Shown: in pieces, positions 30,593 through 34,866 of the stretch | How the letters are laid out: each line of letters starts with the position of its first letter | How positions within the stretch are numbered: the stretch's first letter is position 1 | Notes under the pieces: model-generated | What the model was told of the DNA's origin: nothing | Databases searched by the model: none | The model's input: the letters and a program-made list of their open reading frames with translations, nothing else | NCBI RefSeq assembly: GCF_016863315.1 | Contig: NZ_BOOQ01000041.1 | Span: 62,001-126,000 of the forward strand | Length of the DNA: 64,000 nucleotides | DNA from: Planotetraspora silvatica | GTDB taxonomy: Bacteria > Actinomycetota > Actinomycetes > Streptosporangiales > Streptosporangiaceae | Direction of reading: 5' to 3' | Program-made: the position numbers and the translations under genes

Positions 30593-32182
30593 ATGTCCGG
30601 CAGGCAGCACAGGGAGACGGAGATCGCCCGTCAGGTCCGGGCTCGTGGCCTGGCGGCCGGGCGTGGCCTGGCTCTGATCGCCGACGAGATCCACGAGGTG
30701 TGCGGACCGCAGTTCGGCACCACGAAGATCAAGTCGCATCGTCTCTCGAACGGCATCGCCCTCGCCGATGTGATCGAACAGGTGCGAGCCCTGTTCGAGA
30801 GGGACGGCAAGCCCGTGCCCGGCATCGGTGAGACTCTTCTGTCCGCGTACGAGTCGGGCATGAAGAGGCCTGGCCCCGAGTATCTTCACTACCTGTGTTC
30901 GGTCTACCGGGTCGAGCCGGCCGCCTTGGGATTCGAAGGTCCCTGCATCTGCGGTCATGCCCACCTGGCGCCCGGCGGTCCCGGTGGTGGGGAGTCGAAA
31001 GAAGACCGACCCGACACTTCCCCCGGGCTGCGTCAACTGCTGGTCTCTCCGGACGGCGGCTGCCCTCCCACCGACGGGGGCGAGGAGGACGAAAACGTGC
31101 TACGCAGGACGCTGTTGAAGCTTCTCGCCGGCAGTGCTGGTGTCACTGCCGGCGTCGGCATGGACAGCCAGTTGCTCGGCGCGGTGGACAACGTCCGGCG
31201 GAAGATGGACGACACCATGGTGTCGGCCACCGTTTCCCCGGCGATGCTCGACCAGTGGGAGCAGTCCACCACCGGCTTCGGCCGGCAATATATGAACACT
31301 CCGCCCCTACGGCTCCTCTGCGACGTCCTGCTGGAGTTCTCCACGGTCCGCAAGGCCATGGAGCGCCGCCAGCCCGTCGACGTGCAGGAACGGCTGTGCC
31401 GGATGGCCGCCCAGCTCTCCGGGCTGTGCGGCATGATCATGATCGACCTCGGCGACCACCGCCTGGCCCGCTCGTTCTTCCGCACCGGGCGCACCGCCGC
31501 CGACGAGACCGGTGACCGCGCGCTCCGCGCCTGGGTCACCGCTCGTGAGGCACTGGTGCCGCTCTACTACGGCGACCCGCGCGAGGCGCTGTCGCTGGCG
31601 AAGAAGAGCCGCGACATGGCGGGGCACACTCCCTGTGCGGCCAGGACGATGGCACCCGTCGTCGAGGCCAGGGCCCTGGCGATGCTGGCGGGTGCCAACG
31701 GGTCCCGGCAGGACGTGGTGGAGCAGGCGAAGCGGGCGCTGCACCGGGCCAGACAGGCTTTCTCCCAGATGAGCACGGACGATCAGGAGGACGCGGCCTT
31801 CGGATACACCGAGCGCCAGCTCTACTTCTACCAGGGCGACGTCCTGGTGAAGCTGGGCCAGACGCTGGAGGCCGACGTGGTCCTGGAACAGGCGCTCGGC
31901 AAGTATTCGGGCGAGGATCTCCTCGACCAGTCGCTCATCCGGTTCGACCGCGCGATGTGCCGCTTCATCGAGGGTGACGTCGACGAGGCGCTGCACATGG
32001 CCAGGCAGGCCGTCGAGGCCTTCGCTCCCGACGACATCCCCCAACTGGCCATGCGACCGGCCGCCGAGCTGATCAAGGTCATCCAGGCCAAGTACGGCGA
32101 CCTGCCACAACTGCGGGCCTTCCGTGAGAGTCTCATGCCCGGGGAGTCCAACTCGCCGGCACCCGGCGTCGACGTCCTGTGA
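30593..32182 (+). CDS. HTH transcriptional regulator with TPR-like C-terminal region (NsdA-like)
   Basis: The 529-residue protein has an N-terminal helix-turn-helix region (IADEIHEVCG, TTKIKSHRLSNGIALADVIEQV, then LLSAYESGMKRPGPEYLHYL), a CICGHAH motif near residue 120, and a long helical TPR-like C-terminal half. It resembles the large HTH/TPR regulators of streptomycetes such as NsdA, which repress development and antibiotic production; orthology is not established. Residues around 175-195 contain an RRTLLKLLAGSAGVTAG stretch, a twin-arginine-plus-hydrophobic pattern often present inside this regulator class. The start ATG follows GAGAGGGG. The GNAT gene 22 bases downstream is probably cotranscribed. 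Confidence 0.75.
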   Translation: MSGRQHRETEIARQVRARGLAAGRGLALIADEIHEVCGPQFGTTKIKSHRLSNGIALADVIEQVRALFERDGKPVPGIGETLLSAYESGMKRPGPEYLHYLCSVYRVEPAALGFEGPCICGHAHLAPGGPGGGESKEDRPDTSPGLRQLLVSPDGGCPPTDGGEEDENVLRRTLLKLLAGSAGVTAGVGMDSQLLGAVDNVRRKMDDTMVSATVSPAMLDQWEQSTTGFGRQYMNTPPLRLLCDVLLEFSTVRKAMERRQPVDVQERLCRMAAQLSGLCGMIMIDLGDHRLARSFFRTGRTAADETGDRALRAWVTAREALVPLYYGDPREALSLAKKSRDMAGHTPCAARTMAPVVEARALAMLAGANGSRQDVVEQAKRALHRARQAFSQMSTDDQEDAAFGYTERQLYFYQGDVLVKLGQTLEADVVLEQALGKYSGEDLLDQSLIRFDRAMCRFIEGDVDEALHMARQAVEAFAPDDIPQLAMRPAAELIKVIQAKYGDLPQLRAFRESLMPGESNSPAPGVDVL

Positions 32183-32204: not shown

Positions 32205-32708
32205 ATGGTGGCGGTCCTGAAGATCCGGCAGTACCGCTGGTCCGATCTCGATGCGGTCTGGACGCTGCATCAGATCGGCCTGGCCCAGGTGGGTCTCCTG
32301 CCGGGCGACGGCGTCTACTACGACGACGACTTCCCGAGGATCAGTGAGGTCTACCTGGCGGATCGCGGCGACTTCCTCATCGGCGAGGTGGCCGGTTCGG
32401 GAATCGTCGCGATGGGGGGCCTGCGCCGGGTCGACGACCAGACGGCGGAGATGTGCAGGCTCCGGGTGCATCCGGAGTACCAGCGCCGGGGCTACGGCGC
32501 CCAGATCATGGAGGCGCTGGAGCAGCGGGCCGGCCGGCTCGGCTACACACTGCTGCGCGGTGACACCACTCTGCAACAGGTCGCAGCTCTGGAGCTCTAC
32601 CGCAAGTCGGGTTGGCGTGAGCTCCGCAGGGAGGTCCGAGGCGACACCGTGGTGCTTTATGGCGAAAAGCGACTGAATGCCGAGGTTTCGCGACTTTTCA
32701 GCCGATAG
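32205..32708 (+). CDS. GNAT family N-acetyltransferase
   Basis: This 167-residue single-domain acetyltransferase has the acetyl-CoA loop VHPEYQRRGYGAQI and the C-terminal ALELYRKSGW motif. The substrate is unknown. The ATG at 32205 is behind GAAGG, 22 bases after the HTH/TPR regulator stop; a GTG immediately after it is equally possible. It is upstream of the peptide/TPR locus but separated from it by an 80-base AT-rich gap. Confidence 0.85.
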   Translation: MVAVLKIRQYRWSDLDAVWTLHQIGLAQVGLLPGDGVYYDDDFPRISEVYLADRGDFLIGEVAGSGIVAMGGLRRVDDQTAEMCRLRVHPEYQRRGYGAQIMEALEQRAGRLGYTLLRGDTTLQQVAALELYRKSGWRELRREVRGDTVVLYGEKRLNAEVSRLFSR

Positions 32709-32764
32709 AGAATGCCTTTGAGGCCTTGGCGGATCGCTGATTTGTACCAATACTTGTGCCTTAT

Positions 32765-32775
32765 CCGTTAAACGG
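32765..32775. promoter_or_regulatory. Palindrome upstream of the short peptide gene
   Basis: CCGTTAAACGG is a perfect odd palindrome located 13 bases before the peptide start, in an unusually AT-rich 80-base stretch. A weak sigma-70-like pair TTGGCG-N17-AATACT lies upstream of it. TCCGTTAA recurs at 30522-30529 before the HTH/TPR gene. It could be an operator; this is inference. Confidence 0.35.
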
Positions 32776-32788
32776 GGAAAGAGGCATA

Positions 32789-32863
32789 ATGAAGAAGATC
32801 ATTGTCCGCAAGCCCGGCACGATGAAGCTCACAGGAACATCGAGCGTCATCCACAAGGGGTGA
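32789..32863 (+). CDS. 24-residue basic peptide translationally coupled to a TPR protein
   Basis: A 25-codon frame starts at an ATG 4 bases after AAAGAGG and encodes a lysine-rich peptide beginning MKKIIVRKPGTMKLT and ending SSVIHKG. Its TGA overlaps the GTG of the downstream TPR gene (GTGA), the same coupling used between true operon genes here. It has no signal peptide, Cys or membrane segment. The K/R-rich start followed by a P-G-x-x-x-L-T segment and a short Ser/Thr-rich tail would suit a RiPP precursor or a signalling peptide. It could also be only a leader that sets translation of the TPR gene. I do not recognise the family. Confidence 0.55.
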   Translation: MKKIIVRKPGTMKLTGTSSVIHKG

Positions 32864-34866
32864 AGGAGAACCTTCGCCACATCTGGGTTCGGGGGAACCT
32901 CTCCCGCGATCGCGTGTCGGCGCTCCGCTCCCTGGAGTTGCCCGCCCTCCTGACGCCTGTGATCAACGGGCATCGACGGCTGCGCGGTCCGTACTCGATC
33001 GGCAGCGTCATTTTGCGCGAGCTTGTGCCGGTCGCATTGGAGCGTTCCCCTGACCTGGTGGCACGACACGACATCGAGATCCGCGCCGCCGCGCCGGATC
33101 TGCGGCACCTGGTGCCCCCACGGCGGGAGCCCATCGAGGCCCGCCTGCCGGAGAACGAGCGGATCCTCGTGCCGGCCCCGCGCCGGACGTTGCGCATCGC
33201 CAACGGGCTCGCCGAGTTCATCCGCGACTGCCTGCCCGGCCCGCGCGCACTGGTCGTGGACAACCTCCATCAGGCGGATCCCACCGACCGCGAACTGCTG
33301 ACCGTGCTGGCGCGTCGGGTGGGGCGGCTCACCCTCGTGGTGGGCTCCCCGGAGCGGCCGTTCAGCGGGTCGGGCGAACCGGTCGTCGTCGACGCCGCCG
33401 CCCAGGAGGGCGACGCCGGCGGCTCACCCGAGGACTACGTGATCTCGGACGGCACCTCCGACGACTCCCCGGCCTATCAGGCGTATCTCGCCCTCTCCCC
33501 GGACGAACGGGCGAACCTGCATGATCGGCGGGCCGCCGAGCTGACCGGCGAGTTCGCGCTGGGGGCCGTGCCGTACCACCTGGAGCACGGCAGCGACCCC
33601 GAGGCCGCGGTGCGGGCCTTGTGGAAGGCCGTGGACCACTGCATCACCGAGGGGTTCCTGGACGCCGTGGCCGAACTGGGCCCGCGTGGCCTGCGCCTCG
33701 CCGAGAGCGGCTCCGATCTCTGGTGGCGGTTCACGCAGCGCACGGCGACCGCGCTGGGCGGACTGGGCCGCCGTGAGCGGGCCCTGGACCTCTACGAGCA
33801 GGCGCGGCGCGAGAGCATGGACCCGGTCGTCCACGCGGCCTCCGCGTACGGCACGGCCATGCTGGACGCCCGCCATCCCGACCCGGAGAAGCGGGATCTG
33901 GGCCGGGCCACCGGCTGGATCAACGAGGCTGTGGCGATCTCCACACTGCTGCCCGACCGGCGTGAACGGGCCTTCAAGCTCGGGTTCGACCAGAACGGCC
34001 GTGCGCTGATCGAGCTCCGGCAGGGCCGGGTCGCGTCCGCTCTCCATCTCGTGGAGTCGGCGATCGACCTCGCGGAGCGCGACCTGCCCGAGGGCGCGCA
34101 CCCGGTACATCGCATGGTCCTGTTCGCCAATCGCGCGCAGTTGCTCGCGCGGACCGGCCGGGCCAAGGACGCGCTGCGCGATCTCGACCGGGCCATCGCC
34201 ATCGATCCCTGCTTCCCCGACCACTACCTCGACCGGGGCAACCTGCTACTGGAGCTCGGCCGCCCGGACGACGCGCTGGCCGACTACGAGACCGCGATGC
34301 GGGTGAGCCCGCCGCTGCCCGAGGCGTACTACAACCGGGCCGAGCTGCGCCTGGCGGCCGGCGACCTGGAAGCGGCAAGGGCCGACCTCGATCACGTGCT
34401 GGAGCTGGACCCGGGCTACCTCAACGCGTACGTGAACCGCGCCGGGATCCTGGAGATGCTGGGCGAGCACGACGCGGCTCGCGGGGACGTGGCGGCGGGA
34501 CTGGCCCTCGACCCCGGGAATGCCCACCTGCACGGCGTCCTCGGCCAGCTGGAGACGGCGGCCGGCCGGTTCGCGGATGCCAGGAAGGCGTTCGACGTGG
34601 CGGTGGAGGCCGATCCCGGCCTGGCGTCGGCCTGGGCCAACCGGGCCATCCTGCGTTACGAGAGCGGGGACGCGGCCGGCGCCGTCGACGATCTCACCCG
34701 GGCGATCGAGCTGGGGGACGATTCCGCGCTCTACTTCAACCGGGCCACCGCCCTGGACGCCCTGGGACGTGCGCAGGAGGCCGGGCTCGACCTGCGCCGG
34801 GCCCGTGATCTCGCGCCGGACGACCCCGACATCCGGGAGGCGCTCGAACGGCACGCGGCCGGCTGA
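32860..34866 (+). CDS. TPR-repeat protein with ATPase-like N-terminal domain lacking a Walker A motif
   Basis: The 668-residue protein has an N-terminal domain (1-200) that resembles STAND-type ATPases of LuxR/AfsR regulators. GPYSIGSVILRELVP is followed by a Walker B-like ALVVDNLHQADPTD (Asp134), but no GxxxxGK(S/T) loop occurs anywhere. Residues 250-420 are helical repeats, and 430-668 contain about seven canonical TPRs (for example YLDRGNLLLELGRPDDAL). No DNA-binding domain is visible. It is probably a peptide- or protein-binding scaffold. The GTG start overlaps the stop of the 24-residue peptide gene, so the two are likely functional partners. The function is unknown. Confidence 0.72.
   Translation: MKENLRHIWVRGNLSRDRVSALRSLELPALLTPVINGHRRLRGPYSIGSVILRELVPVALERSPDLVARHDIEIRAAAPDLRHLVPPRREPIEARLPENERILVPAPRRTLRIANGLAEFIRDCLPGPRALVVDNLHQADPTDRELLTVLARRVGRLTLVVGSPERPFSGSGEPVVVDAAAQEGDAGGSPEDYVISDGTSDDSPAYQAYLALSPDERANLHDRRAAELTGEFALGAVPYHLEHGSDPEAAVRALWKAVDHCITEGFLDAVAELGPRGLRLAESGSDLWWRFTQRTATALGGLGRRERALDLYEQARRESMDPVVHAASAYGTAMLDARHPDPEKRDLGRATGWINEAVAISTLLPDRRERAFKLGFDQNGRALIELRQGRVASALHLVESAIDLAERDLPEGAHPVHRMVLFANRAQLLARTGRAKDALRDLDRAIAIDPCFPDHYLDRGNLLLELGRPDDALADYETAMRVSPPLPEAYYNRAELRLAAGDLEAARADLDHVLELDPGYLNAYVNRAGILEMLGEHDAARGDVAAGLALDPGNAHLHGVLGQLETAAGRFADARKAFDVAVEADPGLASAWANRAILRYESGDAAGAVDDLTRAIELGDDSALYFNRATALDALGRAQEAGLDLRRARDLAPDDPDIREALERHAAG

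Follow-up and report, generated by a model that had tools for sequence, protein, structure and literature searches.

What is a reading frame of 24 codons for, when its stop codon overlaps the start of a much longer gene? A locus in the window, by which we mean the whole 64,000-nucleotide stretch of the Planotetraspora silvatica contig analysed here, raises this question. The first-pass annotation described a Lys-rich peptide encoded directly ahead of a TPR protein, proposed a peptide-receptor or peptide-scaffold system, and named RRNPP/Rgg signalling and RiPPs as settings in which similar peptides are known.

The peptide gene and the TPR gene overlap

Reading the frames of the window confirmed a 24-residue peptide, MKKIIVRKPGTMKLTGTSSVIHKG, with 5 Lys, 1 Arg and 1 His, whose stop codon overlaps the GTG of a 668-residue TPR protein (Table 1). 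A ribosome site had also been claimed before the ATG, and the purine-rich GGGGAAAGAGG does lie immediately 5' of it.

Table 1. Features of the peptide/TPR locus, in window coordinates
Feature	Coordinates	Strand	Basis or remark
NsdA-family TPR-like regulator gene	30593..32182	+	NF053720, 150.9 bits against a cut-off of 75; context only
GNAT acetyltransferase gene	32205..32708	+	PF00583 above cut-off; just 5' of the pair; context only
Promoter-like pair TTGGCG (32726-32731), 17 nt, AATACT (32749-32754)	32726..32754	+	Conservation in the 10-sequence alignment
Palindrome CCGTT-A-AACGG	32765..32775	.	In a variable stretch of the 10-sequence alignment
Peptide gene with stop (ATG 32789, TGA 32861-32863)	32789..32863	+	Putative leader ~1-16, group-specific C-terminus ~17-24
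GTGA shared by the peptide stop and the TPR start (GTG 32860-32862)	32860..32863	+	Predicted translational coupling
668-aa TPR protein	32860..34866	+	ORF and Pfam/NCBIfam scans
N-domain, matching the C-terminal part of AAA_16	32875..33330	+	PF13191; no Walker A by eye
TPR repeats, ~residues 417-662	34108..34845	+	Pfam, seven TPR_2 stretches

We aligned the sequence upstream of the peptide gene with that of nine relatives. TTGGC is invariant in all ten sequences, and the AATACT-like hexamer is well kept, its ATA being invariant. Conserved in this way, the two elements probably form a promoter that belongs to the pair, a function that we assign from conservation; a generic sigma-70 consensus scan detected no promoter upstream of the peptide gene. 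The palindrome noted by the first-pass annotation before the pair does exist, but it lies in a stretch that varies among the ten sequences, and we rejected it as an operator for this reason.

The peptide is conserved upstream of TPR homologues

The first-pass annotation had suggested searching for the peptide upstream of TPR homologues and examining its conservation at the codon level, on the argument that TPR genes lacking it, or a frame that accumulates stops and frameshifts, would mark it as a random leader. We found the peptide upstream of the TPR gene in 27 of the 28 loci retrieved with the window TPR protein, the exception (L058) being a bare TPR match, and in 28 of the 30 loci retrieved with a profile of the TPR N-domain. 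Of these 28, 25 show it directly; for the other three, L199, L200 and L213, the longer stretches L189, L111 and L185 were needed to reveal it. The two N-domain loci without a peptide are L212, a weak and doubtful match in genome G209, and L221, which has a TnpB-like gene immediately upstream. When 17 loci of the IHKG group, to which the window peptide belongs, were compared pair by pair, an overall pN/pS of 0.196 revealed purifying selection on the peptide, and four other peptide groups gave values of 0.34, 0.24, 0.12 and 0.21. Peptide and TPR gene are a conserved family of pairs. Looking for contrary cases among the loci examined turned up TPR genes that lack an upstream peptide at L129 and L294, whose genomes carry it elsewhere, at L221/L296, at L291 and at the doubtful L212. 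No Pfam or NCBIfam family matched the peptides that were tried.

At L221/L296 (contig 79 of G349), the TnpB-like gene occupies the place where the peptide would be expected. At L119, a broken peptide frame lies beside a TPR gene reduced to fragments, a case of joint decay and the one decayed frame seen. Genes in relatives were called with a simple GC-based caller that makes evident errors, and the names urease, agmatine deiminase, hutH, smc, ftsY, pcrA, sucC, SARP, OYE, PurU and TnpB stand for what we take these neighbours to be from reading their sequences.

Tight linkage of the two genes is dispensable

Two architectures occur. Peptide and TPR gene are adjacent in type I, the architecture of the window; in type II, a membrane HExxH protein of ~420 aa is encoded between them, which separates the two genes by 1.3-1.6 kb. 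We scanned 107 loci, a set with duplicates that was assembled from TPR or peptide matches, so that its proportions are no survey: 97 have the peptide and a downstream TPR gene, with a stop-start overlap in 59 and none in 38. The GTGA overlap is kept in most of the window's group. Nine loci have a peptide match without a TPR gene just downstream, eight of them with an intact frame and the other being L119, and L129 has a TPR gene without a peptide. All eight genomes with an intact orphan peptide (G009, G020, G095, G295, G437, G492, G501 and G508) carry at least one N-domain match elsewhere. In G020 and G437, which hold a single peptide match and a single N-domain match each, the two matches lie on different long contigs and no peptide was found beside the TPR gene. 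Because both genomes keep the two genes on different contigs, a partnership in trans is suggested; that the G437 peptide starts 43 nt after another TPR-like ORF calls for caution with such a reading.

The settings of orphan peptides differ. At L121 (4494-5682), the orphan peptide has a longer C-terminus, and 43 nt separate it from a different TPR-like ORF that precedes it. At L177 and L178, the peptide VKKVIVHKPGTVQLKG.ASPRHTGG follows shortly after ftsY, with no TPR gene downstream.

These arrangements bear on another explanation of the pair, a cis-acting leader ORF with no role beyond the coupling or control of TPR translation. The GTGA overlap of the window's group would fit, and the window peptide does sit just upstream, as such a leader must, but relatives with distant, orphan or far-apart peptides depart from this position. 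A leader of this kind is also at odds with the non-overlapping loci, with the separation in type II, and with eight intact peptides that have no adjacent TPR gene, and selection acts on the amino acids. We rejected a pure leader ORF on amino-acid selection, the non-overlapping loci and the far-apart genes, and rate this explanation as barely tenable.

Distribution among genomes

The distribution was surveyed in a family sample and a class sample, with only part of the N-domain loci of the family inspected. The N-domain occurs in 70 of the 150 genomes of the family sample, a peptide match at E 0.05 or less in 73 and both in 69; the N-domain genome without a listed peptide match, G035, has MKVIKIRKAGPVRLTSPACTTYHAPG by local profile. 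Four family genomes with a peptide match and no N-domain (E 0.003-0.04) look like chance matches. Among the 394 genomes of the class sample, the N-domain was found in 20, a peptide match at E 0.05 or less in 34 and both in 19, and the 15 genomes with a peptide match and no N-domain have E-values from 7e-4 to 0.05. Peptide-profile E-values weaker than ~1e-3 fail to separate true from chance matches, and weak matches at the right place occur in G017, G485, G135 and G286; the profile and the peptide groups were built from the same sequences that they describe. A phylum sample of 346 genomes yielded only G000, G135 and a weaker match, G666, at whose place no peptide was seen. Within these samples, the system belongs essentially to the window's own class. 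The closest relatives of the window TPR protein lie in the same genus, with 97% identity to that of P. mira and 83-92% to those of three other named Planotetraspora species.

Peptide groups share an N-terminus and follow the TPR tree

The peptides have a common N-terminus, M-K/R-K-I/V/M-x-V/I-x-K/R-x-x-x-x-x-L, followed by ends that are specific to groups: IHKG (SSVIHKG in the window), PKHVG (SPKHVG), AKHLP (SAKHLP), PRHxx and AKHEG-like ends. Type II ends include ACSIYKN, FSCWPF and CYCYGCCCCGG. In 34 hand-picked peptides, identity between groups was 0.51 over positions 2-15 and 0.23 over positions 17-24, and within type II it was 0.80 for the N-terminal and 0.30 for the C-terminal part. Among these representatives, the C-terminus hardly varies inside most type I groups, which sets it apart from many RiPP cores.

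We mapped the seven peptide labels onto a tree built from 80 TPR proteins by a quick maximum-likelihood method; the type II label is defined by the HExxH gene and not by the peptide. The labels require 6 changes in all, the minimum possible; shuffled labels require 40.1 on average, and none of 200 shuffles was as low as 6. Taken singly, the PRH and AKHx labels need 2 changes each. Such agreement can arise from linkage alone, and what it shows is a long history of common inheritance, not contact. Together with codon-level selection, the presence of the peptide beside most TPR homologues and the retention of both genes where they are distant, the co-phylogeny argues for the peptide-receptor or peptide-scaffold pair that the first-pass annotation had proposed.

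A distant TPR clade has an upstream peptide of its own, M[RK]KMT[VI]RRK..[LV]RLLSGARRLW[IF]EWCW, in five of the six loci inspected out of eight listed (L288, L289, L290, L292 and L293; absent in L291). The Trp/Cys-rich WIEWCW or WFEWCW ends at these five loci resemble modifiable cores.

The TPR protein and the neighbouring genes

Seven TPR_2 stretches of the TPR protein match Pfam with an E of 2e-32. The N-terminal 150 residues match PF13191 in 13 of 15 family members; the window member aligns to positions 100-159 of the 167 in the profile with an E of 3.5e-5 and 24.8 bits, under the gathering score of 32.6. No P-loop or Walker A is visible by eye in the N-domain, and a comparison of its profile with solved structures gave nothing useful (best E 0.34, an arginine deiminase). 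The protein is probably a degenerate STAND/AAA-like domain joined to TPRs. Pfam and NCBIfam returned TPR, BTAD-like TPR and AAA_16-like matches only, and no HTH match.

The degenerate AAA_16 plus TPR architecture, the patchy occurrence in the family sample and the metallopeptidase-like partner in type II would be in keeping with a module of conflict or of toxin-antitoxin-like type: the peptide would act as toxin or alarm, and the STAND-like TPR protein would serve as sensor or guard. This explanation has to contend with the eight peptides that persist without an adjacent TPR gene. Furthermore, no vWA, MoxR or FxSxx family match was obtained for four window proteins, and PADLOC, run on three proteins, gave TPR-region or weak matches only; on the PADLOC result we rejected a known defence system. 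We regard a conflict module as improbable.

Two genes upstream of the pair lies the NsdA-family regulator; read by eye, its N-terminus resembles an XRE-type HTH and is followed by TPR-like repeats. The regulator is present at most IHKG loci, and no NsdA or GNAT match was found at the loci of the KHVG, KHLP, PRH and type II groups. Since GNAT orthologues occur in several genomes whose peptide is elsewhere or absent, both neighbours are probably outside the system; GNAT and NsdA were rejected as dedicated partners on these orthologues and on the missing matches in the other groups.

In RRNPP systems, the receptor combines an HTH (or phosphatase) domain with TPRs, and the pro-peptide is exported and carries a hydrophobic segment or signal. 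RRNPP-type quorum sensing, in which the peptide would be exported, re-imported and sensed by the TPR protein or by the NsdA-family regulator, is one form that the signalling mentioned by the first-pass annotation could take. As in RRNPP and Rgg-SHP systems, a short basic peptide is encoded beside a TPR protein, and the recurrence of the regulator at IHKG loci could be read in the same sense. However, the candidate receptor has no HTH match, and the peptide, inspected by eye, lacks a hydrophobic segment and has a gene that overlaps the TPR gene. At loci of the other groups, no match to the regulator was found, and GNAT orthologues also turn up at a distance from the peptide. This reading found no support, and we consider quorum sensing of this type very unlikely.

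Enzymes beside the pair in relatives

The HExxH motif of the type II membrane protein is invariant in ten of ten aligned sequences. Four of the ten match M50 below the cut-off, and two are weakly PqqD-like (NCBIfam E 0.052; probability 44% in a profile comparison); solved structures gave no match to the HExxH profile. In Paractinoplanes ferrugineus (L057), a type II peptide stands directly after TfuA and radical SAM genes, both above the cut-off, of which the B12-binding match of the radical SAM gene falls slightly short; one YcaO gene is adjacent and a second lies ~10 kb further. This setting is the strongest RiPP link, although it is a single locus. Ten other type II genomes (G009, G015, G017, G034, G035, G049, G135, G200, G286 and G401) were searched for YcaO, which occurs in eight, always on another contig or megabases away, and is missing from two; in G015 and G049, contig ends near the module hide more distant neighbours. 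Among the matches listed, a radical SAM match lies ~11 kb upstream of the type II module of G009 (contig 12, 134503-134943). A Streptomyces plasmid has the type II gene order, with its peptide annotated as a 57-aa hypothetical.

This P. ferrugineus cluster (L057/L246) also encodes a 161-aa ORF that resembles, by eye, nitrile-hydratase-type leader precursors, and it is possibly an uncharacterised RiPP cluster. Relatives of the HExxH protein adjoin a gene annotated as ThiF family at L282 (6832-9230) and a protein that looks by eye PqqD-ThiF/E1-type at L253 (6316-8602, reverse-complement coordinates of the locus). These two-gene sets are another candidate for peptide processing.

Type I pairs stand in at least four settings, unrelated to one another, with gene names given by eye: NsdA-GNAT...PurU, urease/agmatine deiminase or hutH, smc-ftsY, and pcrA...sucC. 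No enzyme common to them was seen in the loci inspected, and a modifying enzyme was not found next to the window pair. In the window's genome, searches gave no match to Pfam PqqD or to YcaO and no type II HExxH homologue at E 1e-20; its 16 radical SAM matches include none on the window contig C41 among those listed. Because the type II N-domains escape Pfam PqqD too, the missing PqqD match leaves room for a divergent RRE.

The main rival to a RiPP-type reading treats the peptide as a small subunit of the TPR protein or a ligand built into it, unmodified in either case, with the complex assembled co-translationally. The stop-start overlap in 59 loci, the conservation of the whole peptide within groups, the want of a shared enzyme at type I loci and of PqqD and YcaO matches in the window's genome all agree with it, and for the locus in the window it is no less simple an account. 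What it accommodates poorly is a common N-terminus with C-termini that diverge between groups, a membrane HExxH protein encoded between the two genes in type II, and one locus set in a YcaO/TfuA/radical SAM cluster. We consider an unmodified ligand or subunit a serious possibility, if on balance an unlikely one.

A RiPP-like module as the preferred explanation

We tentatively prefer, at somewhat less than an even chance, to regard the two genes as one module made of a RiPP-type leader-core precursor and a peptide-binding TPR scaffold. The basic N-terminal segment would be the recognition part of the precursor, and the short group-specific C-terminal segment (TSSVIHKG in the window) its active part. 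The soluble TPR scaffold, with its pseudo-ATPase-like N-domain, would bind the peptide through the shared segment and either present it to an enzyme that processes or modifies it or retain it as a ligand. As the pair stands alone in the window genome, any enzyme would act there in trans; in type II, the membrane metalloprotease-like protein would cut or export the peptide. Because the C-terminus is almost invariant within a group, an internal signal or cofactor-like peptide is a more likely product than a variable antimicrobial.

The RiPP idea of the first-pass annotation draws support from relatives, the type II loci and above all L057, but none from the window locus itself. The predicted precursor is under selection as a protein and conserved across genera, and modifying enzymes are encoded with the precursor at L057, whereas none was seen beside the window pair. 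We call the pair RiPP-like and do not file it as a RiPP member because no such enzyme was seen beside it. A broader and more doubtful proposal is that the degenerate STAND/TPR protein serves as a general leader-binding maturation partner for many cores (IHKG, PKHVG, AKHLP, PRH, CSIYKN, FSCWPF and EWCW); these would form a new class of actinomycete peptides, of which stand-alone two-gene versions may be kept as housekeeping-like signals.

The nearest described systems that we found are actinobacterial peptide-processing systems, in which, according to the retrieved portions of Kaur et al. 2020 (PMC7159879), FxSxx-COOH and related precursors occur with a zincin-like metallopeptidase and an AP-ATPase/TPR protein, and for which a conflict role is proposed. 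The pair studied here resembles them, as far as these portions describe them, in its small precursor and NTPase-like/TPR partner, and type II relatives add a metallopeptidase-like protein. It differs from the systems so described in that the window peptide has no FxSxx, RxD or acidic C-terminal motif, that the peptides have 24-33 aa in most loci, and that the NTPase domain is reduced to its C-terminal part; the defining motifs given in these portions are missing here. No radical SAM, vWA or zincin-like metallopeptidase component was seen beside the window pair. With the thioamidated peptides of YcaO/TfuA systems, the pair has in common a precursor of putative leader-core type and one type II relative beside YcaO, TfuA and radical SAM genes, but the window pair has no visible modifying enzyme and no YcaO was seen near the other type II loci; matching of terms against the retrieved part of a paper on these peptides (PMC6511847) gave nothing. 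Among the literature matches listed, we recognised no publication that describes the peptide/TPR pair.

What began as a guess from one genome is now a defined family of peptides that regularly occur with a TPR protein, and 70 of the 150 genomes sampled in the bacterial family have it. The pair is conserved in many soil actinomycetes, stands in some relatives beside genes of kinds that cleave or modify peptides, and so has the look of a peptide system that had escaped recognition. Should the TPR protein bind the shared segment, it would represent a recognition module distinct from the PqqD-type RRE and would offer a handle for finding further peptides, including those with Cys/Trp-rich EWCW ends or those beside YcaO/TfuA. 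The role of short conserved peptides inside filamentous actinomycetes becomes testable with this pair.
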